Shown here: positions 177 through 20,209 of the stretch, piece after piece | How the letters are laid out: each line of letters opens with the position of its first letter | How positions within the stretch are numbered: the first letter of the stretch is position 1 | IMG/VR virus record: IMGVR_UViG_3300025174_000453 | Coordinates: 1 to 20,353 of that record | Reading direction: 5' to 3' (one strand) | Length of the DNA: 20,353 nucleotides | Origin: a virus | Notes under the pieces: generated by a model | Told to the model about the DNA's origin: nothing | The model's database searches: none | The model's input: the letters and a program-made list of their open reading frames with translations, nothing else | Made by a program: the position numbers and the translations under genes

Positions 177-177
177 G

Positions 178-209: not shown

Positions 210-210
210 A
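182..210 (-). promoter_or_regulatory. Candidate sigma70-type promoter for the HTH gene
   Basis: On the minus strand TTGACA (205-210) matches the -35 consensus and is followed after 17 bp by TAATTT (182-187), a weak -10 match. The expected transcription start would fall at or next to the ATG at 176, implying a leaderless or nearly leaderless transcript, in keeping with the missing Shine-Dalgarno. The -10 is poor, so this is a suggestion only. Confidence 0.35.
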
Positions 211-216
211 GTCATT

Positions 217-1065: not shown

Positions 1066-1068
1066 CTC

Positions 1069-2508: not shown

Positions 2509-2515
2509 TGCGGCC

Positions 2516-7209: not shown

Positions 7210-7685
7210 GGCACCAACCACACCAAGACGCTCGCTCCCACCGCCATCACGCACACCATCCTTCCAGAAAACGTCCTTCGCATGAAAATGCCGAGCACGC
7301 CGCGGTATGATTCCCGAATAAAACCAAATTGAAATGGCACCTTGACTTTAAGTCCAGGATCTATACTAACCACTGCCGTGTCGTATGTGGGATACCTTCC
7401 CACCATAATCACATGCAGGGGAGCAACCAGTGGCATGAACCAATAGTATAGCACATCTTCCACAAAGAAAACCCAGAGCACCATCACCTGCACAACCGTC
7501 CAGGTATCGCAAAGCTTATAGATGACTGGTATGCAAACCACGAAGATCAAAAACTGATACATATCGTTCACGAACTGATCCCAGCCGCGGCGTTGCAGAT
7601 ATGCCATCACTGCACCGCCGAACAGCGCATCGACCAGCGCCAGCGCCACAATCACCACAAACGGATTGTTTTCCCAGCCGTTCAT
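7206..7685 (-). CDS. Multi-spanning membrane protein of unknown function between tape measure and hub
   Basis: A 159-residue protein with about four hydrophobic segments: residues 8-31, 42-59, 61-96 (long, possibly two passes, with EDVLYYWFMPLVAP) and 143-158. A soluble stretch at about 97-142 (RYPTYDTAVVSIDPGLKVKV) would face one side. It overlaps the tape measure stop and the hub start by 4 nt each (ATGA), so it belongs to the operon and is not a chance frame. This slot in siphophages usually holds a soluble distal tail protein, so an integral membrane protein is unexpected. Possible roles include lysis, injection-channel accessory or superinfection exclusion; nothing in the sequence decides this. 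Confidence 0.6.
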   Translation of the reverse strand: MNGWENNPFVVIVALALVDALFGGAVMAYLQRRGWDQFVNDMYQFLIFVVCIPVIYKLCDTWTVVQVMVLWVFFVEDVLYYWFMPLVAPLHVIMVGRYPTYDTAVVSIDPGLKVKVPFQFGFIRESYRGVLGIFMRRTFSGRMVCVMAVGASVLVWLVP

Positions 7686-9868
7686 TCCAGCACCTGATCC
7701 TCGTTTGAAGTCCGCCGGCGCCGCGCCGTCTCTCTCCGAACTTGCGGCCTGAGCACCTCGTTAGTCAACCGCTCCGCCATTCTTCGGTCTTGCAGCGGCG
7801 TATTGAAATTGTTCACCATCGTCAATCCCCGTCCACTCCGTCCACTGCGTCCGCCTTGCCCGCCCTGATTCATTTGAATCGCTCTCTCAATTAGCTTTGC
7901 CGAATAATCATCGAACGAGCGTTGTGGCGCAACCACTTCGAAACCAGCCCCTGGCCTTTCCCCCAACATCGCCAGCGTCGGCTCTGTAATGAGTGACCCT
8001 TCTGCCAACGCCGCAATCTGCGATTTTGCTGCGGCGATAAGCCCCGTTGCGATAGCCAACGGTACGATATTCTTCAGAGCCTGAAACGGATTTATGACCG
8101 TATCCAAGATCGCTTTGATCTTGGCCACAATGAAATATTTCTCGATGGCGTCTAACGCCGCAATGAGCAGCGATTTGAAGAACGCCTTGAACGCATTTTG
8201 TCCCGTCATCGCAGCTTCTGCAATTGACTGGGTGATGTTTGAAATTGCGCTCGCAAAAAACATGTGCACTTCTGCAGCTTTCTGATTCCATTCATCGATC
8301 TGCGCTTGTAGCATCACATTTAAATTTTGCTGTGCTTCCGTTTCTCTTGCCGCAATTTCAGTTACCAATTCAAGTCTGCGATCTACACCTGCTCTTCTAA
8401 TCTTAAACTCATTTTCAACAGTCCCATGTGCGATCGCTTCGCGTTGCGCGTTGATCACCCCTTCTTGTTCCAGAATTTCCTCTTGCAACTTCGTCCAGTC
8501 CCCTGTCCACTCTTCGAAATCCTTTTGCCGCGTGCGCAGATAAACGAGATATTGTTGGCGCGAAATCTTCTGATGCTCAAACTCAAACTCCCGCTGATTA
8601 TCCAGCCGGTCTTTCAATTCATCTTGTTGCTTCTGATTGAGCGCTGCCACATCCGCTGCCGGCATCGCTGCTTCAATTTCTAATTTTTTCTTCTCTGCGA
8701 TGACTGTCTTTAGTGCACCTATCTCTTGCTTCAATCTTTGCGAAGCTGCGAGATTCGTCGGCACGGACGTCCCGCCCATTTGCGTGTTCGTAGTACGCAT
8801 CTCGACTTTGAGATTCTTGAACCGCTCTTCCAGTTCGGCCAGCTTCCGCTGAGCTTCTTCTATGGTAAGGCCTGCAAGTTCCTTACGGTATCTCTCTGTT
8901 GCTTTTGCAGCATCTTCTGTCCTTGATTGCAACGCGGCAAATAGCCCAACCACGGCAGTCAGCCCCAAAATTACCCACCCGACCGGACCAGTCCCAAGTC
9001 CGATCATTGGTAACAGCTTCGTGATTACTCCGCTGAATACATATAGCGCGGCAGTCGCTACACCCATTGCCACTGCCAGATTCTGCAGCGCCGCCGGTGC
9101 CCGGTTAAATGCATCTACCATATCGGTAAGCAGTTTCACAAACGGTGCCGAAATCTGCTGCACCATAACTCCCAACGAGGCGCTCGCCCGCGTCGTGGCA
9201 GCCGCCATCCTGGCCTGCTCTCCGGCGGCGCTATTAGAGAGCTTGGCCAGGTCGCCAACTTGCGCTTCCGTCTCACGCATAATCCCATTCACTTCCGCCT
9301 GAATCTTCTCTTGCGTCGTGAGACTCATTACCCCTTTGCCGATGCTCTCGGCATATTCCTTCCACAATATCGAGACGTTCTTGGTGACTCCGGCATTGTC
9401 TACCAGAATACTGTTTTCGTTCTTCAATCCTTCGGTCGCCGTCTTCACCGCTTCGCCGAGTGAGAGATGCGAAACCTTTCCAAAAGCCGCTGCTTCACCC
9501 AGCCGGTTTAGCGTCTGTACCGCTTGCTCCAAGTTGTAACCACGCGAGAGCAGATTCTTCAGAGCAGCAGCCGCGTCGAAATCACTCATCAATCCCGCGC
9601 GTACCGCCTCGAGATCTTTCACCGCCTGGTCCGCGCCTTGAATGCGCTTGAAACTGGCGACCGATTGCAGCCCCGCAAATGCGGCCGTAGCCTGGTTCGC
9701 CGCTTCGTTCACGTTGCGCAGAAAAAGAAAAACCCCCGCTCCGGCGATGGCGGTCTTAACCGTGGCAAATTCCTTCTTCACCTCTTGCGCTTTGTTCTTG
9801 AGGTTCCGACTGAATTCGCTTCCCCCTTTCAGCCTGAGCCATCCTACTATTTCAGCAACCGTCGCCAT
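7682..9868 (-). CDS. Tail tape measure protein
   Basis: A 728-residue helical protein that sets tail length; at about 0.15 nm per residue a tail of roughly 110 nm would be expected. The N-terminal GWLRLKGGSEFSRNLKNKAQ motif, the hydrophobic segments near residues 265-315 (GPVGWVILGLTAVVGLFAAL), a long charged coiled-coil region (about 320-530) and the C-terminal LITEPTLAMLGERPGAGFEV motif are typical. Near the C-terminus, 7831-7866 is a 9-nt repeat encoding GGQ GGR SGR SGR. The start follows repeat A and an A-rich stretch without a clear Shine-Dalgarno. It comes directly after the frameshifting chaperone, as usual in siphophages. Confidence 0.88.
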   Translation of the reverse strand: MATVAEIVGWLRLKGGSEFSRNLKNKAQEVKKEFATVKTAIAGAGVFLFLRNVNEAANQATAAFAGLQSVASFKRIQGADQAVKDLEAVRAGLMSDFDAAAALKNLLSRGYNLEQAVQTLNRLGEAAAFGKVSHLSLGEAVKTATEGLKNENSILVDNAGVTKNVSILWKEYAESIGKGVMSLTTQEKIQAEVNGIMRETEAQVGDLAKLSNSAAGEQARMAAATTRASASLGVMVQQISAPFVKLLTDMVDAFNRAPAALQNLAVAMGVATAALYVFSGVITKLLPMIGLGTGPVGWVILGLTAVVGLFAALQSRTEDAAKATERYRKELAGLTIEEAQRKLAELEERFKNLKVEMRTTNTQMGGTSVPTNLAASQRLKQEIGALKTVIAEKKKLEIEAAMPAADVAALNQKQQDELKDRLDNQREFEFEHQKISRQQYLVYLRTRQKDFEEWTGDWTKLQEEILEQEGVINAQREAIAHGTVENEFKIRRAGVDRRLELVTEIAARETEAQQNLNVMLQAQIDEWNQKAAEVHMFFASAISNITQSIAEAAMTGQNAFKAFFKSLLIAALDAIEKYFIVAKIKAILDTVINPFQALKNIVPLAIATGLIAAAKSQIAALAEGSLITEPTLAMLGERPGAGFEVVAPQRSFDDYSAKLIERAIQMNQGGQGGRSGRSGRGLTMVNNFNTPLQDRRMAERLTNEVLRPQVRRETARRRRTSNEDQVLE
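7831..7866 (-). repeat. Repeat B array in the tape measure gene
   Basis: Four 9-nt units of the GTGGACnnn type, read in frame as GGQ GGR SGR SGR near the C-terminus of the tape measure protein. Confidence 0.75.
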
Positions 9869-9882
9869 ATTTTTCTTCTTTT

Positions 9883-9921
9883 ATCCGCGTTTGCCCCTAT
9901 AATCCGCCACCTACTATCTGC
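9883..9921 (-). repeat. Repeat A copy 9 (before tape measure)
   Basis: GCGGATTATAGGGG, then GCGGAT, plus a third degenerate box GCAGATAGTAGGT on the upstream side. The upstream boxes lie in the end of the chaperone extension and supply its TAG stop. Confidence 0.75.
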
Positions 9922-10307
9922 ACTTCCAATCGATCTCTCCGCCGGCGCTCTTTTTCTTCCTTGGAAACCTTCACCCCTTTGAAACTGATCTTTCTTCCGA
10001 ACCCCGCGCCATGCAAGAACCCCACGATGTTTGCTTCCTCTTGCGCCACGCTGTCTTGCAACTTACATCTATGTAGCGCCGCCATGAATTTTCGCTCTTC
10101 CAATTCTCGCTCTCGCTTCAACTTCAGCCAGATGAAAAACCGCGTGATCGGCATCGCTTCGATGCCGCCATACTTCGTGCAGTCGCCACCGGCTACTTCG
10201 AAGATGAGTTGTTCCCAGGGGTCAATCTTGACTCCGGCACGTTGCTCGGTTCCACGAGTCGCTTGAACTGGCCCGACAAGATCTCGAACCATGCAGTATT
10301 GAGTGCG
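9897..10307 (-). CDS. Frameshift extension of the tail assembly chaperone (GT-type product)
   Basis: This frame is -1 relative to the chaperone gene and overlaps its 3' part. If the ribosome slips at TTTTTTC (10307-10313), reading continues at 10307 for 136 residues and gives a fusion of about 228 residues, analogous to lambda gpGT. The extension contains DPWEQLIFEVAGGDCTKYGG and a Lys/Arg/Glu-rich helix (RERELEERKFMAALHR), as in T-type domains that bind tail tube subunits. The first ATG in frame (10292) has no ribosome-binding site, so it is not treated as a separate gene. The last codons (QIVGGGL and the TAG stop) lie inside repeat A. Confidence 0.7.
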   Translation of the reverse strand, partial: RTQYCMVRDLVGPVQATRGTEQRAGVKIDPWEQLIFEVAGGDCTKYGGIEAMPITRFFIWLKLKRERELEERKFMAALHRCKLQDSVAQEEANIVGFLHGAGFGRKISFKGVKVSKEEKERRRRDRLEVQIVGGGL

Positions 10308-10582
10308 AAAAAATCCGTAATCACCTGCGCTGCGATGGACATTGGTAAATCGTCAAACTCCTCTGAAGCATTTTCTTCCTCGCAATCCAACACGATTGCC
10401 AGAAATCTCTCCACTGAACATTCAGATACAATCGCGTTAATGACGGCTTTAAAGTCCATCACGTTTACAGCGTCCACTGCGCCGAACTCATTGATTATGC
10501 CCAACACCATTCTGAATCTTTTCAGACTGAGCTCGCGCTGCACGTACTTCTTTTCCCCAACCTGATACATTCTATCTTCCAC
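10193..10582 (-). CDS. Tail assembly chaperone (G-type product)
   Basis: A 129-residue, mostly helical protein encoded between the tail tube gene and the tape measure gene, where siphophages carry the assembly chaperone that keeps the tape measure soluble. The start is GTG at 10580-10582 with AGGAG 7 nt upstream, which is better placed than the internal ATG at 10570. Acidic stretch LDCEEENASEEFDD follows a domain with ELSLKRFRMVLGIINEFG. Codons 91-92 (FF) form the slippery site; unshifted ribosomes continue 37 more codons to TAG. The product is not recognised by sequence alone; the assignment rests on position and the -1 overlapping frame. Confidence 0.7.
   Translation of the reverse strand: MEDRMYQVGEKKYVQRELSLKRFRMVLGIINEFGAVDAVNVMDFKAVINAIVSECSVERFLAIVLDCEEENASEEFDDLPMSIAAQVITDFFALNTAWFEILSGQFKRLVEPSNVPESRLTPGNNSSSK
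10248..10313 (-). promoter_or_regulatory. Programmed -1 ribosomal frameshift signal
   Basis: The heptamer T TTT TTC (10307-10313) fits X XXY YYZ in the reading frame of the chaperone gene. The -1 frame is open from a stop shortly upstream of it down to 9897. Sixteen nucleotides downstream the RNA can fold: GGTTC (10286-10290) pairs with GAACC (10248-10252), GAG pairs with CTC, and an inner CTTG pairs with CAAG around an 11-nt loop. The spacer is longer than usual, so the stem is less certain than the heptamer. Confidence 0.7.
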
Positions 10583-10605
10583 AAGAAAGCTCCTGATTTT
10601 TAACT

Positions 10606-10632
10606 GTCCATGCCGTCACTCACGTCCACCGA
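10606..10632 (-). repeat. Repeat B array between tail tube and chaperone genes
   Basis: Three degenerate 9-nt units (GGTGGAC, GAGTGAC, GCATGGAC on the minus strand) in the 57-nt gap, ahead of the AGGAG box of the chaperone. Confidence 0.6.
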
Positions 10633-10639
10633 TTCACCT

Positions 10640-11203
10640 TTATGGCAAGTCGCCCTCGTCATACTCCGATACCACCTTGCCCAGCCGATCGCTGTTGTCC
10701 GGATCCTCAGTGCACTCGAACCGCACCTTGATGAAGCGCCGGTCCCCAATCTTCAACACTTGGCTGAATCCACCGATGATTGCCACGCGGTAGCCGTAGA
10801 AATAATCGTACAGATCCATGTCTTGTGGCTGTGGAACTTTCAACCGGATCGCATAATACGTGGCCGGCTGGAAGTCTGGGATCTCGAACTCTTCGTTCGG
10901 CGGACTTCCGCCGCTGTTGTCAACCACTGCGCTCATCGACGCGCCGAATGTAAGCGCCATATTGCGCACACGGTGCTCGAGCAATAGGCATTCGAACGCC
11001 AGCTCATGGGCGTTCTTCAGAATCTCACGAATGCCCATCGTCGTTCCGGACTTTAGTTTGTTGTACTCAGCCGTGTATTCCACGGTCACACCATCTTCAT
11101 TCGGCTTTCCCAGATTCGTGGGGCTGCTGAAGTTGCCGCCGACCACATCGAGATCGATTCCGGCGCAGCCAATGCGTGTTTCAAAGTTACTCGTCGCTGC
11201 CAT
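10640..11203 (-). CDS. Probable major tail (tube) protein
   Basis: A 187-residue, beta-rich acidic protein. The start at 11203 has GGAG 6 nt upstream. It sits after the tail completion gene and two small unknowns and just before the assembly chaperone, the normal place of the tube subunit. Segments such as VTVEYTAEYNKLKSGTTMGI and RRFIKVRFECTEDPDNSDRL, with alternating beta pattern, fit the tube fold shared by siphophage tail proteins. No specific family is recognised from sequence, so the name depends on context. After the stop, 57 nt hold a repeat B array and the next Shine-Dalgarno. Confidence 0.6.
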   Translation of the reverse strand: MAATSNFETRIGCAGIDLDVVGGNFSSPTNLGKPNEDGVTVEYTAEYNKLKSGTTMGIREILKNAHELAFECLLLEHRVRNMALTFGASMSAVVDNSGGSPPNEEFEIPDFQPATYYAIRLKVPQPQDMDLYDYFYGYRVAIIGGFSQVLKIGDRRFIKVRFECTEDPDNSDRLGKVVSEYDEGDLP

Positions 11204-11216
11204 TTCAATCTCCGGT

Positions 11217-11429
11217 TTATTCCATCACTTCCAGATTTTTTTCCCGCCGCTTCAGCGCTTCCAGATGCTCGCGCCGCACGGCCGTCCCTTCGCCGCCGAG
11301 CTTCAGGTCATATCGCTCCCCTTCCACCGCGTGGATCGCCCGTCCATATTGCGCCAAGCCGATAAACTTCAGCCGGCATTTCACAAAGTCGATCTGTGCT
11401 TGCTTTTCGTTTTGGACTTCTTCAGCCAT
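11217..11429 (-). CDS. Small charged protein of unknown function upstream of the tail tube gene
   Basis: A 70-residue protein from the ATG at 11427-11429, which overlaps the preceding stop by 8 nt (ATGGCTGA); GGTG lies about 6 nt upstream. The frame is open 18 codons further upstream inside the previous gene, but that start lacks a ribosome-binding site. It is basic and helical (AEEVQNEKQAQIDFVKCRLK at the start, REHLEALKRREKNLEVME at the end) with one central basic-hydrophobic part. No known family is recognised. Position suggests a small tail assembly factor. Confidence 0.55.
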   Translation of the reverse strand: MAEEVQNEKQAQIDFVKCRLKFIGLAQYGRAIHAVEGERYDLKLGGEGTAVRREHLEALKRREKNLEVME

Positions 11430-11709
11430 TGCTTTCACCAATCCTTCTCTTTTCAACCTCTTCCCATTGATCCTTGAATCCATGAAACCATACCTCCAGT
11501 TCCTGTGGACTTTGTAGCATTATTGCACACTGGCCTGTCCGATTACTTTTAACATATTCCATCAAGTCTGCTAAAGGACGCCATCCTATCACTTTCCAAC
11601 CACTCTTTATTACCAAGTTAAATTGGTCATCGTAGCTCCATGGCGGCTCACACCTTAACGCATAGCCTGAGTTATTGTAATGATACCTATACGATGGCAG
11701 CTTTCTCAT
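11422..11709 (-). CDS. Small protein of unknown function in an AT-richer patch
   Basis: A 95-residue protein joined to the upstream gene by an ATGA overlap. It is rich in Tyr and Trp (SYRYHYNNSGYALRCEPPW; SGWKVIGWRPLADLMEY) and ends in a charged helix. The gene looks lower in GC than its neighbours on both sides. No family is recognised. It interrupts the usual sequence of tail completion then tail tube genes, so it may be an acquired accessory gene (moron), although the tight overlaps say it is co-translated with the block. Confidence 0.55.
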   Translation of the reverse strand: MRKLPSYRYHYNNSGYALRCEPPWSYDDQFNLVIKSGWKVIGWRPLADLMEYVKSNRTGQCAIMLQSPQELEVWFHGFKDQWEEVEKRRIGESNG

Positions 11710-12182
11710 CTCAAACTCAATGCGCCGTTTCTGATAATATACCGCGCCTTCAAATCGACGCGCGCAAACACATATTCCCCCGAATGGGCATGAATGAACT
11801 CCGCATATTCCGTCTCTCCGAACTCCGTTAATTCCGGATGCCCAGTTATGCCCGCTGTGTAAGTCGTCGAAACCAATTCCGGATTGCTGCTGATCACAGC
11901 CTGCACCGCTCTCATCAAATCTTCCGCCGCTTCTTCTTTCTCTCTGCGATGCTCGATTCCACCATCGAGCTGATCTATCTGAATCAGCACCGCAATCCCA
12001 ATATGCCCTTCCTGGTAGATGTATCCTTTGCCGCTGCCAACATTCACCGCCCGTCTTTTATCAATCCATACTGTGGAAGGGGAGAGCCCTTCTTGTTCGT
12101 TTCGAATCACCGTCGATCCCAAAAGCACCCCGGCCGTCGCTGCATTGAGTATCTCGTACACTGCTTTAAACATCTCTTTCAT
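11706..12182 (-). CDS. Probable tail completion / head-tail joining protein
   Basis: A 158-residue protein following the HK97 gp10-like gene, where tail terminator or completion proteins are normally encoded. It has an N-terminal helix (FKAVYEILNAATAGVLLG) and then strands and helices such as GHIGIAVLIQIDQLDG and EDLMRAVQAVISSNPEL, in keeping with the small alpha-beta tail terminator fold. The first ATG follows repeat A with an A-rich upstream stretch and no Shine-Dalgarno; Met4, preceded by AAAGAG, is an alternative start. The function is inferred mainly from gene order. Confidence 0.5.
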   Translation of the reverse strand: MKEMFKAVYEILNAATAGVLLGSTVIRNEQEGLSPSTVWIDKRRAVNVGSGKGYIYQEGHIGIAVLIQIDQLDGGIEHRREKEEAAEDLMRAVQAVISSNPELVSTTYTAGITGHPELTEFGETEYAEFIHAHSGEYVFARVDLKARYIIRNGALSLR

Positions 12183-12189
12183 TTCTTTA

Positions 12190-12230
12190 ATCCGCGCTTT
12201 TCCCTAAAAATCCGCGACCCACTATCCGCG
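12190..12230 (-). repeat. Repeat A copy 8, three boxes
   Basis: GCGGATAGTGGGTC, GCGGATTTTTAGGGA and a third GCGGAT, together filling the gap between the gp10-like gene and the tail completion gene; the start codon follows 7 nt after the last box. Confidence 0.8.
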
Positions 12231-12239
12231 TTTCCCGAT

Positions 12240-12713
12240 TCATCCGAATATCAGATCTTTCAACTTCGGCGCTTCTTCTTCAAACGCTTCACGCAGAAAC
12301 GGCCGGGGCTTCATCCCCCGAATCGTCACCTTCTTCACCGGATGGGATGCGCCTGGCCAGACCAACGCCCGCTTGTTCTTAGGAAAAATCGTGTATGGCC
12401 GCGCCTTCGGCCCATAGACTCCGGTGCCCTCATGCACATAGATTGCATAGGGCGCCGTGAACTTCACTTCGGCCCGTGTATCAAACCCAGATCCCGAGAA
12501 GCTGGTCGTACCTGAACTCATCAAGTTCCCGCCTTTTTTCTTTCCCTGAAACTTAGCCACCGGCGCGCGCTGCACCGCCTTCGCCTCGATCAATGCCGCC
12601 ACTCGCTTCACCGCAGCTTCCGCTTTCTTGGGGAATTGAATGATCATGCCCCTAAACTCTTTGTCATCCAGATCGATCTCGGCTACGGGAAATTGTTTAT
12701 CTGTCGAAGCCAT
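12240..12713 (-). CDS. HK97 gp10-like head-tail/tail component
   Basis: A 157-residue protein with the pattern of the HK97 gp10 family: an N-terminal helix (KKAEAAVKRVAALIEAKAVQ), RAPVAK, a Ser/Gly loop, YAIYVHEGTG and the closing MKPRPFLREAFEEEAPKL. Members of this family sit between the head completion proteins and the tail terminator of siphophages. The start at 12713 follows a repeat B remnant (GGTGGACAGGA) with no spacing to a good Shine-Dalgarno. The downstream 57-nt gap is filled by a three-box copy of repeat A. Confidence 0.75.
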   Translation of the reverse strand: MASTDKQFPVAEIDLDDKEFRGMIIQFPKKAEAAVKRVAALIEAKAVQRAPVAKFQGKKKGGNLMSSGTTSFSGSGFDTRAEVKFTAPYAIYVHEGTGVYGPKARPYTIFPKNKRALVWPGASHPVKKVTIRGMKPRPFLREAFEEEAPKLKDLIFG

Positions 12714-12736
12714 TCCTGTCCACCGCGTTTGTCAAA

Positions 12737-13006
12737 TCAATTACCGGAACTTGATCCGCCATTGCCTTTACCGTTTCTCATCGTCACATACTTATCCAAA
12801 ATCCCTAACCCCAGAATCCCAGAAATCAAGAATGCCCAATTCATTGGAATGTCAACCATCTCTTTCACGCCCACTGCGATCTTCACATACGCACTCAAGA
12901 ATGCCGCAGAAATCATCAGCATGATTAACCGCTTCATCGAAGCTTTTCCATCCGGCTCCTGAAAAAATCCCTTCACCCATTCAACCTGTTGCTTCAACCA
13001 GTCCAT
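12737..13006 (-). CDS. Two-helix membrane protein, holin-like
   Basis: An 89-residue protein from ATG 13004-13006, chosen because GAGG lies 8 nt upstream inside the repeat B array; a TTG at 13030 would add an N-terminal VDEVDK stretch made of repeat B. An amphipathic N-terminus (DWLKQQVEWVKGFFQEPDGK) leads to two hydrophobic segments, about residues 25-45 (RLIMLMISAAFLSAYVKIAV) and 57-72 (NWAFLISGILGLGILD), and a Gly/Ser-rich hydrophilic tail. Size and layout resemble class II holins, but it lies among head-tail joining genes with no endolysin nearby. Membrane nature is clear; the lysis role is a guess. Confidence 0.6.
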   Translation of the reverse strand: MDWLKQQVEWVKGFFQEPDGKASMKRLIMLMISAAFLSAYVKIAVGVKEMVDIPMNWAFLISGILGLGILDKYVTMRNGKGNGGSSSGN

Positions 13007-13027
13007 CTTGTCCACCTCGTCAACAAT
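13001..13027 (-). repeat. Repeat B array at the start of the two-helix membrane protein
   Basis: Three 9-nt units (GTTGAC, GAGGTGGAC, AAGATGGAC). The second supplies the GAGG ribosome-binding site and the third contains the start codon. Confidence 0.7.
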
Positions 13028-13042
13028 CAACCTTTATTTTTG

Positions 13043-13070
13043 ATCCGCATCTTTCCCTATTAATCTGCGT
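13043..13070 (-). repeat. Repeat A copy 7
   Basis: GCAGATTAATAGGGA followed by GCGGAT. The TAA in the first box is the stop codon of the KTSC gene. Repeat B follows downstream. Confidence 0.75.
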
Positions 13071-13278
13071 CCACCTTCGTCGCTTCGTATACGCCCTTGA
13101 TCTTCTTGAACAAAAACCCGCCCAACGACTTCGCCTTCATCAGCGCCGTGTGCACCGCCTTCGGCACATCCGCATAAGCATACACGGAGCCATCTTTGAA
13201 TTCAATCTCCAGACGCCTGGTCGCTGCCTCATATCCCACCGAAATCAAGTTGCTCGATTTGACTCTCTTTCTTTCCAT
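13060..13278 (-). CDS. KTSC domain protein
   Basis: A 72-residue protein. Residues 8-68 match the KTSC domain, a short module first noted at the C-terminus of some lysyl-tRNA synthetases and common as a stand-alone phage protein: SSNLISVGYE, LEIEFKDGSVYAYADVP, then SLGGFLFKKIKGVYEATKV. The start at 13278 has GGAG 6 nt upstream; ATG at 13284 is next to that box and less likely. A longer reading frame upstream overlaps the neighbouring gene and is low-quality sequence. The last codons and the TAA stop (VDAD, TAA) fall in a repeat B unit and repeat A. Its biochemical role in phages is not known. Confidence 0.8.
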   Translation of the reverse strand: MERKRVKSSNLISVGYEAATRRLEIEFKDGSVYAYADVPKAVHTALMKAKSLGGFLFKKIKGVYEATKVDAD

Positions 13279-13294
13279 GTCCATCTCCACTTTA

Positions 13295-13320
13295 ATCCGC
13301 GCATCCCTACTGATCCGCGC
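13295..13320 (-). repeat. Repeat A copy 6
   Basis: GCGGATCAGTAGGGA then GCGGAT, in the gap before the KTSC gene, followed by GTGGAGATGGAC, which resembles repeat B and supplies the Shine-Dalgarno. Confidence 0.75.
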
Positions 13321-13327
13321 TTCCCAA

Positions 13328-13831
13328 TCACTCCGGCCAATCGTCATCGATCTCTGCACCATCATCATCGATGGCAAACGAGCGCTCCGGCCCCGGCGAT
13401 CCCCCACCGAAATCTTCCACCACATACAGCGCCGCTGCTTCTTCCGCCTTGCGCACCATGTTATCTTGCATCGTTTCAATCTCAGAGGGCGACATGTACC
13501 GGAACGTGCTCTCCCCAATAATGCCATCCCTGGCTATCCCCGCTGCCTTGCTCCCACTGGATTGCATCACCGTATTCCAGGACATTATCCCAACCGCGAT
13601 GGCGAGATAAGCTTCCGCATCTGCGAGCGCCTGGCACTGAGCTGTGGCTCCGGAGAACTCTTTTGGAGTCCCAAGTGTGCCGGCTTCAGTCTCAGATTCT
13701 GCATAAGGCGCATCACCGACCCAGCGCTTCAAGCGGCGGCCAGCATGGCGCAGATGCGGATTTATCACTGCATCACTGAGTGAGTTTGGCATATTCCCCA
13801 TAACCCTGACATGGTTCGCGTCTGCAATCAT
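13328..13831 (-). CDS. Probable head-tail connector protein
   Basis: A 167-residue, largely helical protein following the capsid region. Features include NPHLRHAGRRLKRWVGD, an Ala-rich helical centre (ALADAEAYLAIAVGIMSWNT), FRYMSPSEIETMQ and an acidic C-terminus ending DDDGAEIDDDWPE. This fits the gp6/DUF1320-like helical adaptors that dock on the portal, but the assignment is mostly by position and composition. The first ATG follows a three-box copy of repeat A without a Shine-Dalgarno; Met11 (13801) and Met14 (13792) are alternatives preceded by G-rich stretches. Confidence 0.5.
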   Translation of the reverse strand: MIADANHVRVMGNMPNSLSDAVINPHLRHAGRRLKRWVGDAPYAESETEAGTLGTPKEFSGATAQCQALADAEAYLAIAVGIMSWNTVMQSSGSKAAGIARDGIIGESTFRYMSPSEIETMQDNMVRKAEEAAALYVVEDFGGGSPGPERSFAIDDDGAEIDDDWPE

Positions 13832-13838
13832 CTATTTA

Positions 13839-13879
13839 ATCCGCGTTTTTCAGATCCGCATTCTCCCCTAAAATCCGCG
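13839..13879 (-). repeat. Repeat A copy 5, three boxes
   Basis: GCGGATTTTAGGGGA, GCGGATCTG and a third GCGGAT fill the whole 48-nt gap between two genes; ATG follows 7 nt after the last box. Confidence 0.8.
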
Positions 13880-14212
13880 CTACTCTACCTTGCCTTGTTC
13901 TCGCAGTTGCGCCGCCACGTCAGCAGTCACGGTCAGCCTGTCCCCGACTTTGTACTTCACCTCGTCCACGGCAATCTTTTGCTTCACGGTCACTTCCACG
14001 AGGCTGGTCTGCGGTTCATCGATTGCCTTGGCCGGTTTCACTTCGATCAGCTCTCCGGTGTTGATTCGCGCCTGCACAAAGGCCGTCTTCGGCACTTCCT
14101 GAAACCCTTGTTTCTGACGCGAGCTGCAGATTGCAATGCCATTGGCGGGGTCAACGAACCCACCGTTGCGCTTGGCAACCTTTTGCCCGAGCTTGATTCT
14201 GATGGTGTCCAT
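13880..14212 (-). CDS. Small protein following the capsid gene, unknown function
   Basis: A 110-residue protein from MDTIRIKLGQ (ATG 14210-14212). The frame is open 25 codons further up, but that part overlaps a small membrane ORF and reads unlike a protein start; ATG at 14224 is another possibility. It has an N-terminal beta-rich part with NGGFVDPANGIAICSS and a C-terminal KVGDRLTVTADVAAQLREQG, which resembles short phage proteins that follow the capsid gene and carry a 'GDxxxVxxxxAxxLxxxG' ending. A head completion role is possible. The 48-nt gap after it is a complete three-box repeat A. Confidence 0.55.
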   Translation of the reverse strand: MDTIRIKLGQKVAKRNGGFVDPANGIAICSSRQKQGFQEVPKTAFVQARINTGELIEVKPAKAIDEPQTSLVEVTVKQKIAVDEVKYKVGDRLTVTADVAAQLREQGKVE

Positions 14213-14324
14213 AGCTCCGTTCATCCGTTTCCAAAAGTTCATTGCCCCAGCGAATCGCGGCCAGGCACAAACCAAACCCCAATGCAAACCCGACCGCGAT
14301 ACCTATGATCAATCCAAGCATCAT
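14151..14324 (-). CDS. Small single-span membrane protein overlapping the capsid stop
   Basis: A 57-residue frame starting ATGATG at 14324, whose first ATG overlaps the capsid gene stop by 4 nt (ATGA). Residues 3-24 are a strongly hydrophobic, Gly-rich segment (LGLIIGIAVGFALGFGLCLA), followed by AIRWGNELLETDERSYGHH and a basic tail. It overlaps the next gene by 62 nt in another frame. The coupling to the capsid stop and the clear membrane segment argue for a real gene; without it the sequence between the capsid stop and the next start would be an unexplained 108-nt gap. Function is unknown. Confidence 0.5.
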   Translation of the reverse strand: MMLGLIIGIAVGFALGFGLCLAAIRWGNELLETDERSYGHHQNQARAKGCQAQRWVR

Positions 14325-15481
14325 GGCAGATCGTTCGTGGTGTCCCAGACCCTAGCGGCATTCGTGATGATCCGCGCATAGCCCACCACGTCGGAAATTG
14401 CGATGTTCTGCCACTGCGAAGTTACGAGCCGTTCGGTTTCAGTGAGACTGGCGTTTGATTCTTCGATCCGCTCCAGTGCACGTGACGCGTCCACGCCCAG
14501 CACCTTATCGGAGAGAATCGAGCTGCTCGGGTCATGCCGGCGGACCGGTGATCCAAACGGCGTGATCGCGTTGCCCGTGCTGAAAAATTGTTGGGCAACC
14601 AGCGAATTGTTGAAATCCGCCATTGACATCAGCTCGATCCAGTTCGTTTTGTCCGCGGCCAGAATCCGGATCTCATACGGCTCGAATTCTGCCAAAAACT
14701 TGACGAAGTTTTTAAAGCCGATTGCGCCAATCGTATCCACCGGCGCGCTGTTACCGTTGCCGTCGCCATTGATGGTCACTGAAACCGCGTCTTCGGTTTT
14801 GTCGAGCATCATCCGAAAGCCGGCAAGTTGGAAAAACACCGCCATCTTGTTGGCGCGAATTCGGCGCATGTGCTCGTAGGTCGCCTTGATGAGCATGCCG
14901 TGTTTCTTCAGCTTGATCGTTTCATCGCCGACCGTGATGCTGACCGTGGGGAACTCCACGCCCTGGCCAACCACGCCCATGCTCACGTCTTGCGTTTCAT
15001 CAATGCTCGCGGCCTGATACGTTCCGCTCTCGATCTGAGTCACCACGGCGATCAGATCTTCATCGCGCAGTGTATACCGGCCCAGAAGCTGGCCAACCTT
15101 CACTTGCGTGTTGATGAACTCCGGAAACAGCACGCGATTCTCCGGCGTGTTGTAGAACTCTTCCAACGTCACCGCCGCTTTGCCGTTGACATTGAGATTG
15201 CGCACCGCAAGCTGGCGTTCGAAGGCATTGAGTTCGCACCCAGGATAATTCTCGCTGGGATCAATCTCTTCCAGAAGTTCGGTCAGTGTGACCGGCGCCG
15301 GTTTGCCATTCACCGCGCGCGATTGGCACGCCTGGTACATGCCGAATTCCAGCGGGATCTTTTTCAAGCTCGAAGGTTTCACGCTTCCGTTCGGCCCGCG
15401 CACCGCCGCGGCCATGTTGGAAACGTCGAATCCGTAGAGCAGAGCCAGATTCAACAGATCAGAGAAACTCACCTTTCGCAT
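14321..15481 (-). CDS. Major capsid protein (HK97-fold, inferred)
   Basis: A 386-residue protein. The start at 15481 is preferred because AGAGG lies 8 nt upstream; an in-frame ATG at 15547 would add 22 residues made mostly of repeat B (VDEVDKKQK). It follows the protease-scaffold and decoration genes, the standard capsid order. Typical segments are an extended N-terminal arm (ENRVLFPEFINTQVKVGQLL), a TVGDETIKLKKHGMLIKATY central strand region with the following MRRIRANKMAVFFQLAGFRM spine-like helix, and a C-terminal part with GFKNFVKFLAEFEPYEIRIL and IAISDVVGYARIITN. This is the pattern of major capsid proteins of the F116/P2-like or SPO1-like broad HK97 group; the exact family is not identified. 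Confidence 0.8.
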   Translation of the reverse strand: MRKVSFSDLLNLALLYGFDVSNMAAAVRGPNGSVKPSSLKKIPLEFGMYQACQSRAVNGKPAPVTLTELLEEIDPSENYPGCELNAFERQLAVRNLNVNGKAAVTLEEFYNTPENRVLFPEFINTQVKVGQLLGRYTLRDEDLIAVVTQIESGTYQAASIDETQDVSMGVVGQGVEFPTVSITVGDETIKLKKHGMLIKATYEHMRRIRANKMAVFFQLAGFRMMLDKTEDAVSVTINGDGNGNSAPVDTIGAIGFKNFVKFLAEFEPYEIRILAADKTNWIELMSMADFNNSLVAQQFFSTGNAITPFGSPVRRHDPSSSILSDKVLGVDASRALERIEESNASLTETERLVTSQWQNIAISDVVGYARIITNAARVWDTTNDLP

Positions 15482-15514
15482 TTCATCATCCTCTTTGATA
15501 TTTTTTTGCTTCTT

Positions 15515-15543
15515 GTCCACTTCGTCCACACTCAGTCCATCTC
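15515..15543 (-). repeat. Repeat B array upstream of the capsid gene
   Basis: GAGATGGAC, then GTGTGGAC and GAAGTGGAC with one spacing irregularity, between the decoration stop and the capsid Shine-Dalgarno. Repeat A is absent here. Confidence 0.7.
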
Positions 15544-15915
15544 TCACCCCAGATCAACAACGCATGTGCTGGCATCGGTATCCACCGATTCCACAAAGAA
15601 CGGGATGCCGTTTGTGGCGTCGATCTGCACCGCGCCGCTTGCGCCGCATTCAAGCTTGTTGTATTCGCCCACGGTCGGCGCCGTGCTCGTGTAAGTCACG
15701 GTCGCCAAGCCGCGCACTTGCACGGTGATCACGTCGTCTTCAATGTTCGTGATGACTCCGCGAAAATGTTCATTCGCTCCGCCGACCTTCACCAAGCCGC
15801 CGGTGGTAATGCTGGCCGCCTTGTTTTCATGCGTCGCCTTCGTGATCGTTCCGCTCTTCCCATAGGAAAGGAATTGCGCGAACTGCCCCGCTTTCTTGTG
15901 AGTTGTCCATGCCAT
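15544..15915 (-). CDS. Head decoration / capsid stabilising protein
   Basis: A 123-residue, Gly/Thr/Val-rich beta protein. GGLVKVGGANEHFRGVITN, then ITVQVRGLATVTYTST and APTVGEYNKLECGASGAVQ give the pattern of small beta-barrel decoration proteins (DUF2190/gpD-like) encoded next to the capsid gene. The start at 15915 has GGAG about 10 nt upstream. The 53-nt leader carries two short hairpins. After the stop, a 62-nt gap holds a repeat B array and the capsid Shine-Dalgarno. Confidence 0.65.
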   Translation of the reverse strand: MAWTTHKKAGQFAQFLSYGKSGTITKATHENKAASITTGGLVKVGGANEHFRGVITNIEDDVITVQVRGLATVTYTSTAPTVGEYNKLECGASGAVQIDATNGIPFFVESVDTDASTCVVDLG

Positions 15916-15937
15916 CGTTAGATTCTCCGAAATCTCG

Positions 15938-15966
15938 GTATCACTGATACGCTCACTCTAAGAGCG
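15938..15966 (-). promoter_or_regulatory. Two adjacent short inverted repeats in the leader of the decoration gene
   Basis: GTATCA and TGATAC flank a single base at 15938-15950, and CGCTC and GAGCG flank 7 nt at 15950-15966; they share one base. They fill most of the 53-nt gap between protease-scaffold and decoration genes, the one head-gene junction that carries neither repeat A nor B. They could protect or process the mRNA so that decoration and capsid are made in excess, or bind a regulator. No T-run supports a terminator. Confidence 0.35.
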
Positions 15967-15968
15967 CG

Positions 15969-17171
15969 TTATTTGCCGATTCGGAATGCTTCCTGATTGA
16001 TCGGTTTCTCGTTGCCTTTTGCTTCTGCCGGCGGCTCTTCCACGCTGCTTCGGCGCTCCATCTTCCCGCCGCATTTGCTGCACTTCATCGGGAACTTCTT
16101 TTCCAACTTCGCGCTGTACTCGGCGTGGAACTCTTCCAGACCGTCCAGATCCATCAGCTTCAGAAGATTCTCCGTGCCCTTGCCACACTCGCCCTCGAGC
16201 TTCACCACAAGTTGTTGACATTCTCCCCGTCGCTTCGTAACCAGGGCCTCGTAGACTTTCGCTTTAACGTCCAGCGCTTGCTTGCCTTCGCGCAACTCGT
16301 CGTTCGCTTCGGCCAGTGTGCGCACCGATTCTTCCAACTCTTCCCACGTCGAAAGCGCGCTAATCCCAAGCAGCGCTGTCAATGTCGAAAGCTGTGCTTT
16401 GCTCAACAACAACCCTTCCATTTCTCGATCTCCTTTGTTTTCACTCAGCGCCTTGCGCTCTGCGCTCTGCGCCAATTTATCCGCTTCGGTATCACCGCCT
16501 TCATGCACCAGTGCGATATGCTGATATGCCAACATCTCCGTAACCATGATCCGTACAATCGCACCATCGATCTCTTCGCCAATCAAATTCCAGAACTGCC
16601 AACTCTCTAGGTCTGGATGAGATTGCTCCCATTCAAAGTAAAATGAGATCGAACAGCTTTCCACGAGTGGGGGGTCTGCCAACAGTTGCCGACATTCCTG
16701 CGGACAGATCTTGTAATCCAACCTCACGTCCACATTGATGCCCGGTGCGGATTGATCGCCGCTGGCTTCACTCCATTCGGCGCCATTGATATAGCCGATG
16801 ATTGCCTGCGTGGCCTCGCTATGGCCGCGATGAAACTTCAAATGCCGGCGCCGCGTCCCACCCATTGACTTCGGCAGCATCAGTGGGATACTGCGCAGCA
16901 ATACGCCCGGTCTGCTGAAGTCGAGCCAGTATCCATCCGGACCGAGATAGGTCGCCGAGATTGCCCGAAATTTCATCATCATCCAATCTTCCGGCTTCGG
17001 CATCACATCTTCCGGCTTGTCTGGCATCGTCAGCTCAAGCTTCTTGGCGACCGGTCTCATGCTTTCCACCGGCATCCTGAGAGCGATGTTCGCTCGCTTC
17101 TCCCCAACCAACTCGATCCATTTCGGCACTTCAACTTTCATCCTTTTGTCCATCTCGTCTACTTCGCCCAT
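15969..17171 (-). CDS. Prohead protease fused to scaffold domain
   Basis: A 400-residue protein. The N-terminal half is a prohead protease of the S78/U35 type: KFHRGH (112-117) would supply the catalytic His, ESCSIS (171-176) the Ser in the usual strand before an FYFEWEQ segment, and TEMLAYQHIALVHEGGD (211-227) the acidic motif at the domain end. Residues 250-325 form a helical, charged scaffold-like region (EELEESVRTLAEANDELREG). A single CSKCGG motif (364-367) near the C-terminus is unusual. The first ten residues (GEVDEMDKRM) come from repeat B; ATG at 17141 is an alternative start. It precedes decoration and capsid genes as expected. A shorter in-frame scaffold start, Met251 (REMEGLLLSK), is possible. 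Confidence 0.72.
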   Translation of the reverse strand: MGEVDEMDKRMKVEVPKWIELVGEKRANIALRMPVESMRPVAKKLELTMPDKPEDVMPKPEDWMMMKFRAISATYLGPDGYWLDFSRPGVLLRSIPLMLPKSMGGTRRRHLKFHRGHSEATQAIIGYINGAEWSEASGDQSAPGINVDVRLDYKICPQECRQLLADPPLVESCSISFYFEWEQSHPDLESWQFWNLIGEEIDGAIVRIMVTEMLAYQHIALVHEGGDTEADKLAQSAERKALSENKGDREMEGLLLSKAQLSTLTALLGISALSTWEELEESVRTLAEANDELREGKQALDVKAKVYEALVTKRRGECQQLVVKLEGECGKGTENLLKLMDLDGLEEFHAEYSAKLEKKFPMKCSKCGGKMERRSSVEEPPAEAKGNEKPINQEAFRIGK

Positions 17172-17174
17172 CCG
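17148..17174 (-). repeat. Repeat B array at the start of the protease gene
   Basis: Three 9-nt units (CGGATGGGC, GAAGTAGAC, GAGATGGAC) that span the start codon and encode GEVDEMD. Confidence 0.65.
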
Positions 17175-17199
17175 CCCTTGTCTCTGCTTTTGGATTCAC

Positions 17200-17226
17200 A
17201 TCCGCGCCATTCCCCTATCAATCCGC
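17200..17226 (-). repeat. Repeat A copy 4
   Basis: GCGGATTGATAGGGGA then GCGGAT, upstream of the protease gene; repeat B follows and runs into the coding sequence. Confidence 0.8.
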
Positions 17227-17262
17227 ATAGCCCAAGTCTCGGCTTTTCCATCAACCGCCTTT

Positions 17263-17352
17263 TTAAACGTTCTGAATGCGTTCAAATCGCTCGCCACTGT
17301 ACGCGCTCAGAAAACCCATAGGATAAGACCCAAACAAAGGCGCGTTCTCCAC
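17263..17352 (-). CDS. Possible 29-residue micro-ORF in the gap before the protease gene
   Basis: The 186-nt gap between the stop at 17358 and the protease start contains a GTG-initiated frame of 29 codons (ENAPLFGSYPMGFLSAYSGE, then RFERIQNV). It reads like real protein but has no Shine-Dalgarno and no recognised relative. The rest of the gap is repeat A. It may be a gene remnant. Confidence 0.2.
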   Translation of the reverse strand: MENAPLFGSYPMGFLSAYSGERFERIQNV

Positions 17353-17357
17353 AGGCG

Positions 17358-17549
17358 TTATGCGCTGTTATTCTCTACCCACCAAAGCTGACCACGTTTC
17401 AACAAATCCGGATTCAATTCTGCCGCTATTCTCATCAATGATCCTGCTAAACACATACACTCATCAAACTGACGTGGATCATTATAGCCCTGCGCACAAA
17501 CCCTCTGCGCCTGCCGTTCCATCTCCCGCGCTTTTTCAATTTGTTCCAT
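17358..17549 (-). CDS. Small helical protein of unknown function downstream of portal
   Basis: A 63-residue protein, starting EQIEKAREMERQAQRVCAQG and ending LLKRGQLWWVENNSA. The N-terminal half is a charged amphipathic helix and there are three Cys (VCAQ, ECMC). It is separated from the portal stop by 34 nt that consist almost entirely of repeat A, and the start has an A-rich upstream region (AAGATCAA) instead of a Shine-Dalgarno. No family is recognised. Small proteins after the portal gene are often head assembly accessories, which is only a positional hint. Confidence 0.5.
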   Translation of the reverse strand: MEQIEKAREMERQAQRVCAQGYNDPRQFDECMCLAGSLMRIAAELNPDLLKRGQLWWVENNSA

Positions 17550-17557
17550 TTGATCTT

Positions 17558-17582
17558 ATCCGCATCTTCCCTATTAATCCGC
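17558..17582 (-). repeat. Repeat A copy 3
   Basis: GCGGATTAATAGGGA then GCGGAT makes up almost the whole gap between the portal stop and the next ATG. Confidence 0.8.
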
Positions 17583-17583
17583 T

Positions 17584-19926
17584 TCACCCTTCAACTGCGA
17601 CCAACCGCGTTTTACAGTTCGGATGAAACGGCGGGAACCCAATTCCCTGCCGTGTTGCTTCCGTTACTCCGATGCTGCGAATCACTTCGCTCGTAATCGG
17701 CGCAAGTCCCTTCGCATATTCTTCCGGCGAGAGCGCACTCAGCTTTTCCACCGCTTCCTGCGCCACGGCAACTTTGATCCGCGTGCCCGTCATGTAGATG
17801 CAGATCTCAGCCTGCGGTGCCGGATTATAGATCATCGCTTCTTTGAAACCTGCTTCATTGAGCTGTCCCACATGTGCCCAGTTGCGCATCCGCGCTACCG
17901 AAGTATCAATGATCCGCTGTGCCTCATAGTCGCTGAGCGGCACCAGCCGATCTACCGCCAGCGATTTGAACGTGTCGAGCGCTTCGCGCGAGGTGCGACC
18001 AAACAGCCCTTCGCCTTTTTCCAACCATTGGCTCTTTAGAAAATCGAGTACTTGATTTTCAGTCGGCTCATTGAAGATGTACTTGCTCAGATAAAGCCGG
18101 TCGAAACGACGCATGAACTGCACCGTGCGCCGGTCAACACTATCCATCGTGAAAGTGAACTTGCCCGCCGGAATCGCCGACCGATCCTCGGTGCGATAGT
18201 ACTCGTAGATCTGCTCCACCGATTTCTTCAGCGCTTCTTGCGCTTCCTTCGACGTGAACGCTTCAGCGTAAGCTGAAGTCATCACGCCGAATGCGCGCTG
18301 CGCGAAATCTTCCGGCCCCGAAAAATCCCGCAACGCCGACCGTCTCAGGAACGCAGCCAGCACGTCCACCGCTTCCATTGTGCTATCCTTCAGAAACGGT
18401 TGGATCGACTTCAAATACTTCGCTCCCCACTTTTCCAGTACGCGCCGCACCGTCTCTTCCGCCGTCAGCTGTATCTCAATCCTCGGCCGCACGAAACTAT
18501 ATCGTTGTAATCCCCGATCATATCGAAATACCCTTACCAATCCACCCCGTCCACCAAGTCCACTTTGTCCATCTCGCTCCCCGTTCAACCTTTCCACCTC
18601 AAACCATGAATCATACCCCAACTCCTGCGCCGCAGTATCCGGATCTATCACGCCAGTGCGTGCTTTTTCAATGATCGCGCGTTGCCGTGTTTCTTGAGCC
18701 TGTGCTTCAGATAGTGGATCTCTGGCCGGATTGTCATTGAACTTGAATATCACTCGCTCAACTTGAATCCCTTGCAATCTAAGATCGAGATTGTATGTTG
18801 CTTCCATTCGACGCTTGGGAAGCGAACGGATATTGTTCGCCTGCCTGATCATGAACATGTACGTCACGTTCGCAAACGTCTCCGTGGAGTGATAGCTCCG
18901 GCCTATGATCGTCGGATCGATCCCCATGCCACTCGCAATCTGCTCTTCATTCAAGTCCCAAACATCTTTCGAGCCGCGCGCGTCCGACGTAATATTGTGA
19001 TGCTCTACTGTTTGATCCGAAAACTTCACCATCAAACCGCGCATGTAATTCACCTGCAGCGCTGTCACCACTGCGGTGAGATACTGGCCCTTCCGATCGG
19101 AATACTCTTTGTCCGACTCGGCCGCTTTCTTCGGCGGGGGAGTGAGTGTCATCGCCACCAAACCCAGCAAGCCGAATTTGCGCATTACAAATTTTATGTT
19201 CTCGTTCATATCGCGTTGCGCCAAGAGCGGCTCAATTGCGGCAACATACAACGGCACCGCGTAAGGGGAGTTTTTGATTCGCCTAAAAGCAAAGTATCGA
19301 TATTGCGTTTCGTTCAGTTCTAACATTTCCCCAGTCATCAAAAGCTGGAATGGCTTGTACCCGCCATCGATAAGCTTAAACCGGATCCGGTCCGTGGGAA
19401 CTATCACCACTCTGTCAACCCCGTCCATCTTTTCCGAAACTACATCTTCCGAACTGATGGCGCCAGTCACTGCGATCTGCTCGATGTAATGATTGATCAG
19501 CCCGTCGATTCCGGCGCTCATCGGGTAAAGGTTCTGCGCCCGATCATTCAACCGTGCATGCGCTTTTTCGACGATGCTATCACTCGCCGCTTCCACTACA
19601 AGCTGATGGCCATTATTTGCCAGGTTGATGAGATTCGTTGTTGCGTGATTCAGATCCGGATTGATCGGCGCTACGCGCGTCAGCCATTCCACCAGATCAA
19701 ATGGCAGAACTGGATTGAGTCCGGCCAGATCTTGCAAGAATAATCCCATCTGGCCGAACGAAGTCGCCGTCTCTTCTACGCTCGATCTGCCTGCCTTTGG
19801 CGCAACCGGATCATTCCCCTGCGCCAACATCGCCGCCGTCTTCTGGATTTCTCCGAGCAGATCCTTCTGCGGCTCAGGCTTCACGTACCCAAATCGCTCA
19901 GCGAGCTTGTCAATCCAGCGCGCCAT
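17584..19926 (-). CDS. Portal protein fused to a MuF-type minor head domain
   Basis: A 780-residue protein. Start ATG 19924-19926 overlaps the upstream stop by one base (TGATG); a TTG just upstream is less likely. Residues 1-445 are portal-like: PFDLVEWLTRVAPINPDLNH, then the helical SAGIDGLINHYIEQIAVTGA wing, RRIKNSPYAVPLYVAAIEPL, and IASGMGIDPTIIGRSYHSTE. Residues about 480-780 are a MuF/SPP1 gp7-like domain: RIIDTSVARMRNWAHVGQLN, APQAEICIYMTGT and the terminal FPPFHPNCKTRL signature. The two parts are joined by GER DGQ SGL GGR GGL, encoded by a 9-nt repeat B array. The portal forms the DNA channel and docks the terminase; MuF domains are minor head proteins that may enter the head. Confidence 0.82.
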   Translation of the reverse strand: MARWIDKLAERFGYVKPEPQKDLLGEIQKTAAMLAQGNDPVAPKAGRSSVEETATSFGQMGLFLQDLAGLNPVLPFDLVEWLTRVAPINPDLNHATTNLINLANNGHQLVVEAASDSIVEKAHARLNDRAQNLYPMSAGIDGLINHYIEQIAVTGAISSEDVVSEKMDGVDRVVIVPTDRIRFKLIDGGYKPFQLLMTGEMLELNETQYRYFAFRRIKNSPYAVPLYVAAIEPLLAQRDMNENIKFVMRKFGLLGLVAMTLTPPPKKAAESDKEYSDRKGQYLTAVVTALQVNYMRGLMVKFSDQTVEHHNITSDARGSKDVWDLNEEQIASGMGIDPTIIGRSYHSTETFANVTYMFMIRQANNIRSLPKRRMEATYNLDLRLQGIQVERVIFKFNDNPARDPLSEAQAQETRQRAIIEKARTGVIDPDTAAQELGYDSWFEVERLNGERDGQSGLGGRGGLVRVFRYDRGLQRYSFVRPRIEIQLTAEETVRRVLEKWGAKYLKSIQPFLKDSTMEAVDVLAAFLRRSALRDFSGPEDFAQRAFGVMTSAYAEAFTSKEAQEALKKSVEQIYEYYRTEDRSAIPAGKFTFTMDSVDRRTVQFMRRFDRLYLSKYIFNEPTENQVLDFLKSQWLEKGEGLFGRTSREALDTFKSLAVDRLVPLSDYEAQRIIDTSVARMRNWAHVGQLNEAGFKEAMIYNPAPQAEICIYMTGTRIKVAVAQEAVEKLSALSPEEYAKGLAPITSEVIRSIGVTEATRQGIGFPPFHPNCKTRLVAVEG
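18540..18584 (-). repeat. Repeat B array at the portal-MuF junction
   Basis: Five 9-nt units, three close to GTGGACnnn, read in frame as GER DGQ SGL GGR GGL at about residues 448-462 of the fusion protein. Confidence 0.75.
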
Positions 19927-20165
19927 CAATCCTGTCCAATGTGTTCGTTTCGTCCATCAACTTTTTTATCCGCGCTTCCCCTACAATCCGTGCCTTCTAT
20001 CCCCACTGATTTCGCTATCGCGTCCAGTTGTGCTGTGATCGCATCTCTTCTGAGTGCATCACACCGCGGGCACCAATACGGCGTGAATGCCGTCCCTGCC
20101 ACGTTCTGACATTTCCCCTCGTAGTCTCCAAAACCCAAGCACTTTTTAAAATCAATTCGCTTCAT
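19926..20165 (-). CDS. Small four-cysteine protein, possible zinc ribbon
   Basis: A 79-residue protein between terminase and portal. Cys9, Cys19, Cys32 and Cys35 (CLGFGDYEGKC, YWCPRC) could form a zinc site, followed by a helix (DALRRDAITAQLDAIAKS). The last 23 or so residues (GTDCRGSADKKVDGRNE and on) are encoded by repeat A and repeat B and probably are not part of the folded core; they run into the portal start. Start ATG 20163-20165 follows another repeat A copy. It could help packaging or bind nucleic acid; no named family is recognised. Confidence 0.6.
   Translation of the reverse strand: MKRIDFKKCLGFGDYEGKCQNVAGTAFTPYWCPRCDALRRDAITAQLDAIAKSVGIEGTDCRGSADKKVDGRNEHIGQD
19934..19960 (-). 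repeat. Repeat B array before the portal start
   Basis: Three units (GTTGATGGAC, GAAACGAAC, ACATTGGAC) within the end of the four-cysteine gene, just before the portal ATG. A related single unit (TTGATGGAC) lies at 20167-20175. Confidence 0.6.
19968..19991 (-). repeat. Repeat A copy 2, inside coding sequence
   Basis: ACGGATTGTAGGGGA then GCGGAT, read through as the C-terminus of the four-cysteine protein. A degenerate third box (GGATAGAAGG) precedes it. Followed by a shared GTTGATGGACGA stretch and repeat B. Confidence 0.75.
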
Positions 20166-20182
20166 CGTCCATCAACTCTTTT

Positions 20183-20209
20183 ATCCGCGCTCTCCCCTAC
20201 AATCCGCGT
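20183..20209 (-). repeat. Repeat A copy 1
   Basis: GCGGATTGTAGGGGA then GCGGAT, between the terminase stop and the four-cysteine gene. The following AAAAGAGTTGATGGACG is nearly the same as after copy 2, so the two copies look like a recent duplication. Confidence 0.8.

Follow-up and report, generated by a model that had tools for sequence, protein, structure and literature searches.

In this phage lineage, the spaces between genes are probably colonised by short intergenic repeats of host type that belong to several families, and repeat A (GCGGAT-N-TAGGG-N-GCGGAT) is, with a probability of about 0.6, one of these families, which would spread by slippage and recombination and sometimes become the boundaries of gene cassettes. 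The window, by which the whole analysed stretch of 20,353 bases is meant, is a virus record of an incomplete genome. Its nine copies of repeat A all lie on the minus (coding) strand, the plus strand being free of them (Table 1), and these are the nine copies that a sequence-only reading of the same DNA had listed. The distance from box to box is 18-20 nt in eight of them and 21 nt at 17200, as that reading had it, and no copy is found at positions 1-9882. Of the third boxes that had been claimed, two are clear and the one of copy 9 is degenerate (GCAGAT, 9916-9921), but the copy at 19968 has a weak one, GGGGAT on its upstream side. Contig L011/L034, virtually identical with 3 mismatches over 11,789 bases, shares the A copies, and in L011 one middle box reads TAAGG for TAGGG.

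The abundance of repeat A is far above that in shuffled sequence. In 1000 dinucleotide shuffles, a pattern fitting all nine copies averages 0.002 matches and never exceeds 1, a test that is somewhat circular because the pattern was written from the copies. A simpler search for GCGGAT pairs 18-21 nt apart gives seven on the minus strand and none on the plus strand, compared to a shuffle mean of 0.04. The minus-strand GCGGAT box is also about 18-fold denser in noncoding DNA, with 17 occurrences in 1066 noncoding bases versus 17 in ~19.3 kb of coding DNA; the comparison of junctions with genes and with shuffles, which had been proposed as a check, came out in favour of the repeat. Repeat A belongs to the stop codon and the junction, not to the start codon. 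The upstream stop adjoins or overlaps the beginning of the element in seven of nine copies (≤24 nt), with gaps of 1, 1, 4, 9, and 24 nt and two copies (13043 and 9883) that overlap the gene and supply the stop themselves, whereas the next start codon lies anywhere between 7 and 46 nt away. The remaining two are the copy at 19968, within the last 22 codons of a 79-codon ORF, and that at 17200, far past the upstream stop. With these nuances, the earlier placement of the copies between stop and start codons, or in the last codons of the upstream gene, was right. Copies 1 and 2 form an imperfect direct repeat of ~55 nt that flanks the 79-aa ORF, and they are the most alike pair of all copies.

Table 1. 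Positions in the window of repeat A, repeat B, and the variable genes with A on both sides.
Feature	Position	Strand	Context
A copy 1	20183-20207	-	terminase stop (20212) on one side, start of 79-aa ORF (20165) on the other
79-aa ORF	19926-20165	-	absent from L035; A on both sides
A copy 2	19968-19991	-	C-terminal codons of 79-aa ORF, ahead of portal gene
Repeat B-like stretch (GATGGACGAA...ATTGGACAGG)	19926-19962	-	between A copy 2 and portal start
Repeat B, in frame	18540-18572	-	linker ending the portal domain of the portal/minor-head fusion protein
A copy 3	17558-17582	-	1 nt past portal stop; C>T variant at 17571 in L011
63-aa ORF	17358-17549	-	absent from L035; A on both sides
A copy 4	17200-17226	-	upstream of head maturation protease gene; 131 nt past upstream stop
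Repeat B	15512-15540	-	leader of major capsid gene
A copy 5 (13854-13878) with clear third box (13839-13844)	13839-13878	-	1 nt past stop of gene 13880-14212
A copy 6	13295-13318	-	upstream of KTSC gene
KTSC-domain gene (PF13619)	13060-13278	-	elsewhere in L035; A on both sides
A copy 7	13043-13068	-	overlaps and supplies KTSC stop codon
Repeat B (9-nt units, GTTGACGAGGTGGACAAGATGGAC)	13001-13024	-	over start of 89-aa gene; includes AGGTGG Shine-Dalgarno-like stretch
A copy 8 (12190-12215) with clear third box (12224-12229)	12190-12229	-	after neck gene
A copy 9 (9883-9907) with degenerate third box	9883-9921	-	overlaps and supplies stop of gene 9897-10292; before tape measure gene
Repeat B, in frame	7831-7854	-	near C-terminus of tape measure protein

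The copies behave as direct repeats and not as hairpins or terminators, as had been claimed. Of seven junction RNAs, two fold moderately better than shuffles (z -2.3 and -2.5) and five do not, and a terminator-like scan returned one weak match only, at the third box (12213-12230); a hairpin, REP, terminator, or other RNA element was therefore rejected. No Rfam family matches the A junctions. A promoter was likewise rejected, promoter-like sites being at chance level.

By homology, the gene order of the window is terminase, portal/minor-head fusion, head maturation protease, virion structural protein, major capsid protein, neck protein, and tape measure protein, where terminase and tape measure were named from position and conservation with L035, having no strong match to a named family. 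All assigned genes are coded on the minus strand. At the start of L034, positions 1-43 resemble the 3′ half of a tRNA (CATAATCC...GGTTCGAGTCC...CCCCGCAACA). This stretch may serve as an attachment site or belong to the 3′ end of a tRNA gene, and ARAGORN calls no tRNA there; at 335-970 of the same contig, upstream of the terminase region, lies a small ORF resembling a C-5 cytosine methyltransferase, with no match in L035.

A second element of the window, repeat B, consists of 9-nt units similar to GTGGACAAG on the same strand as A. Three genes (capsid, portal, and 89-aa) have it in their leaders, and two proteins contain it in frame. Portal and minor-head proteins form one fused ORF in all relatives seen (17584-19926 in the window), and the in-frame 9-nt array in the fusion linker (residues ~452-462) is seen in the window phage only. 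Since the fusion is common to L035, whose linker is without B, repeat B represents a change in a tolerant linker. The B pattern is rare in Acidobacteriota, being present in 6 of 199 genomes, and occurs in 1 of 112 genomes of the order of the bacterial genome G328.

The main evidence comes from the syntenic relatives L035, L036 (IMG 3300031576), and L207 (IMG 3300037422), which show 67% identity to the window in the capsid, about 60% in the portal, and 70% in the terminase; the lineage sample comprises four contigs plus the near-identical L011/L034. Repeat A is absent from all three relatives. Their matching junctions hold different direct or palindromic repeats in transcription orientation, on the coding strand, and these fall into a hairpin repeat H (TAACTCATCCCC...CCCCTTCTCTT...AAGAGAAGGGG), 7-nt CAAARRS arrays, CAGTRAT arrays, and GGATTGATGG arrays, with several unrelated families in a single relative. 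In L035, most junctions longer than ~40 nt contain another coding-strand repeat, namely H (at 3654, 7885, 11018, 13561, and 16172), CAAARRS arrays, or CAGTRAT arrays. Among 69 capsid-related contigs checked, only L034-L036 carry coding-strand repeats of these families in number. In-protein and terminal repeats are seen as well: a CAAARRS array lies in frame in the protease gene of L035 (6900-6963) and also of L036, and tandem units of ~59 nt, which are also self-complementary, occupy positions 1-260 at the start of the L035 contig.

The exchange of repeats is clearest between L035 and L036, whose genes share about 90% DNA identity with almost no indels. Their terminase/portal junction holds H in L035 and an array of three GGATTGATGGATCGCT units in L036; the same junction is of the GGATTGATGG type in L207 and has the arrangement A-ORF-A in the window. 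The GGATTGATGG array resembles the conserved start context of the portal gene, GGATTGATGG, and may have arisen by tandem duplication on the spot instead of being imported. A 44-nt palindrome is located at the portal/protease junction of L036 (3883-4090) and is absent from L035 and L207; this stretch resembles a REP or MITE-like element. The junction between the protease and the structural gene also differs between L035 and L036. Unit numbers change too: at one junction with matching flanks, the CAGT array of L207 is long, with many units, and that of L035 has ~2. The structural genes of L035 and L036 are under purifying selection, with dN/dS of 0.09-0.17 for portal, protease, capsid, and the homologue of the 15544 gene. 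Simple decay of a prophage is therefore unlikely, and a decaying prophage was disfavoured for the relatives.

Bacterial chromosomes hold counterparts of these repeats. Of 198 Bacteroidota genomes, 6 contain H, five of them in at least two copies, and these six belong to a single order; the reversed control gave none, and H is absent from the 115 Verrucomicrobiota genomes searched. Among 2.9 million viral contigs in IMG/VR, strict H is present only in L035 and L036, suggesting that phages do not generally acquire such repeats, a point against the preferred reading. Direct GCGGATT pairs are enriched over control in several phyla with species-specific unit lengths; the counts are 49 versus 6 in the Armatimonadota genome G001, 27 versus 0 in G328, 18 versus 0 in G004, and 15 versus 0 in G006, where the enrichment in G001-G014 is partly selected because those genomes were picked for an A match, and G328 and G102 were not chosen in this way. 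The pairs are mostly intergenic in G328, a genome that holds H, GCGGATT arrays, and CAAAAAG arrays together. As for strict A, no genome among those of about 85,000 species has more than one copy, and the 21 single matches compare with roughly 30 estimated by chance; 4 of the 21 sit in multi-box arrays. Because of this, a host origin of A is argued from the repeats of its relatives, and the single-copy limit counts against the preferred reading. No close capsid relative was found in 395 Bacteroidota or 396 Acidobacteriota genomes, and searches for prophage relatives in these two phyla by capsid or portal profile gave distant matches only. Of the three ideas raised from the window, host-type repeats are nevertheless the best supported, by the multi-copy H of one Bacteroidota order and the GCGGATT arrays of many bacteria, although A itself never exceeds one copy in a searched genome.

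The presence of nine copies in one orientation, with near-constant box spacing and three boxes at some sites, could instead mark a sequence-specific site at which a regulator of phage or host origin binds DNA or mRNA, similar to the stoperators of L5 and Bxb1 or the start-associated sequences of cluster K. The uniform orientation and the fairly constant spacing of 18-21 nt, which could reflect a binding constraint, count against the preferred reading to this extent. We nevertheless consider a binding site unlikely. This idea, also put forward by the sequence-only reading, keeps its orientation, intergenic position, and copy number, but it is weakened because related phages hold unrelated repeats at the same junction, even where their genes are ~90% identical, and one relative can hold several families. 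The variable distance to the start codon and the in-frame occurrence of the B and C repeats within proteins also speak against it, as does the lack of enrichment of the start-associated motif and of two stoperator motifs.

Less likely still is that A is a dedicated recombination boundary used by phage recombination for cassette exchange, as proposed in mosaic phages. Three genes that are missing from L035 or relocated in it have A on both sides (Table 1), one of them being flanked by the ~55-nt direct repeat, and the A-bearing neck/12182 junction has two extra genes in L035. However, gene content differs at seven of nine junctions with A versus three of nine without A, which gives p = 0.08 in a post hoc comparison with small n, and the copies at 13854 and 9883 stand at junctions of unchanged gene order. 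The 13854 copy stands between two genes whose L035 counterparts overlap by 4 nt. The earlier suggestion of recombination boundaries is thus suggestive as far as these bracketed genes go. Similarly doubtful is a plain phage-specific duplication, in which a leader segment unrelated to bacterial repeats was copied from one junction to the next: in IMG/VR, multiple copies of strict A occur in this virus only, which would fit, but the lineage has several other families at these junctions, including a repeat of bacterial chromosomes.

If A is a host-type junction repeat, its history may be pictured as follows. Short repeats of bacterial-chromosome type would settle at phage junctions, and their copies would lie at or just after stop codons, with related repeats in a few tolerant protein linkers, because an insertion of 20-50 nt is harmless there. 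Arrays could then grow by slippage, and recombination over short homology could copy repeats to other junctions or replace those already present. The junction repeats would in turn provide short boundary homologies at which small gene cassettes enter, leave, or move. Copying of direct repeats along genes that all run one way may explain the shared orientation, as may selection acting on the mRNA, and we infer that specific protein binding need not be involved. The junctions look like hot spots at which short repeats settle and genes are gained, lost, or moved. As an extension that we hold to be improbable, the junctions could be interchangeable docking sites for repeats of the current host, where short homology to host or prophage DNA drives a host-specific traffic of small cassettes and the repeat set changes with the host.

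The usual reading of oriented junction repeats in phages is that of regulatory sites which a phage group conserves. In this lineage it is the junction that is conserved and not the sequence, with unrelated families swapping at one junction between phages whose genes are nearly free of indels. The lineage could accordingly be a natural record of intergenic repeats invading a compact genome, and makes it possible to test directly whether phage mosaicism is seeded by short junction repeats. A search of the open-access literature found no precedent for such phage repeats, which is weak evidence.

Compared to known systems, repeat A shares with the start-associated sequences of cluster K that these are oriented, asymmetric, multi-copy junction repeats of phages. 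The cluster K element is a single 13-nt site directly upstream of start codons, largely conserved at the same gene families, and its associated inverted repeats differ between subclusters (PMC3203893); A is a two- or three-box element at stop codons, absent from relatives. The likeness that had been noted from the window fails because the 13-nt motif (similar to GGGATAGGAGCCC) is not enriched, with 5 matches at 3 mismatches versus 3.5 expected, and because A hugs the stop codon; nor is one motif kept at homologous genes, where L035, L036, and L207 have other repeats. The stoperators of L5 and Bxb1 are 13-nt sites bound by the phage repressor; these sites are asymmetric, lie between genes in a fixed orientation, and vary in sequence from phage to phage (PMC3029335). 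Repeat A likewise occurs in many asymmetric intergenic copies of one orientation; the L5 and Bxb1 consensus sequences give 0 and 1 matches in the window, at chance level, and no repressor gene was identified in this incomplete genome. The same paper discusses conserved boundary sequences at mosaic phage junctions, shared between exchanging phages. A may resemble them as a short homology at gene borders beside gained, lost, or moved genes, but it is not shared by the known relatives.

Among described repeats, the nearest to A are the intergenic heptamers (TAACTGA direct repeats) of Beggiatoaceae, Cyanobacteria, and Bacteroidetes, which have been suggested to take part in gene rearrangement (PMC4679880). 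They occur in bacterial chromosomes as 7-nt units, mostly just upstream of start codons, whereas A is a phage element at the stop codon with ~19-nt box spacing and a TAGGG middle box. Both are short intergenic direct-repeat units, mostly in one orientation to the next gene, with some inside ORFs, and the enrichment of intergenic direct units over control that characterises bacterial short direct repeats is found for A/GCGGATT.
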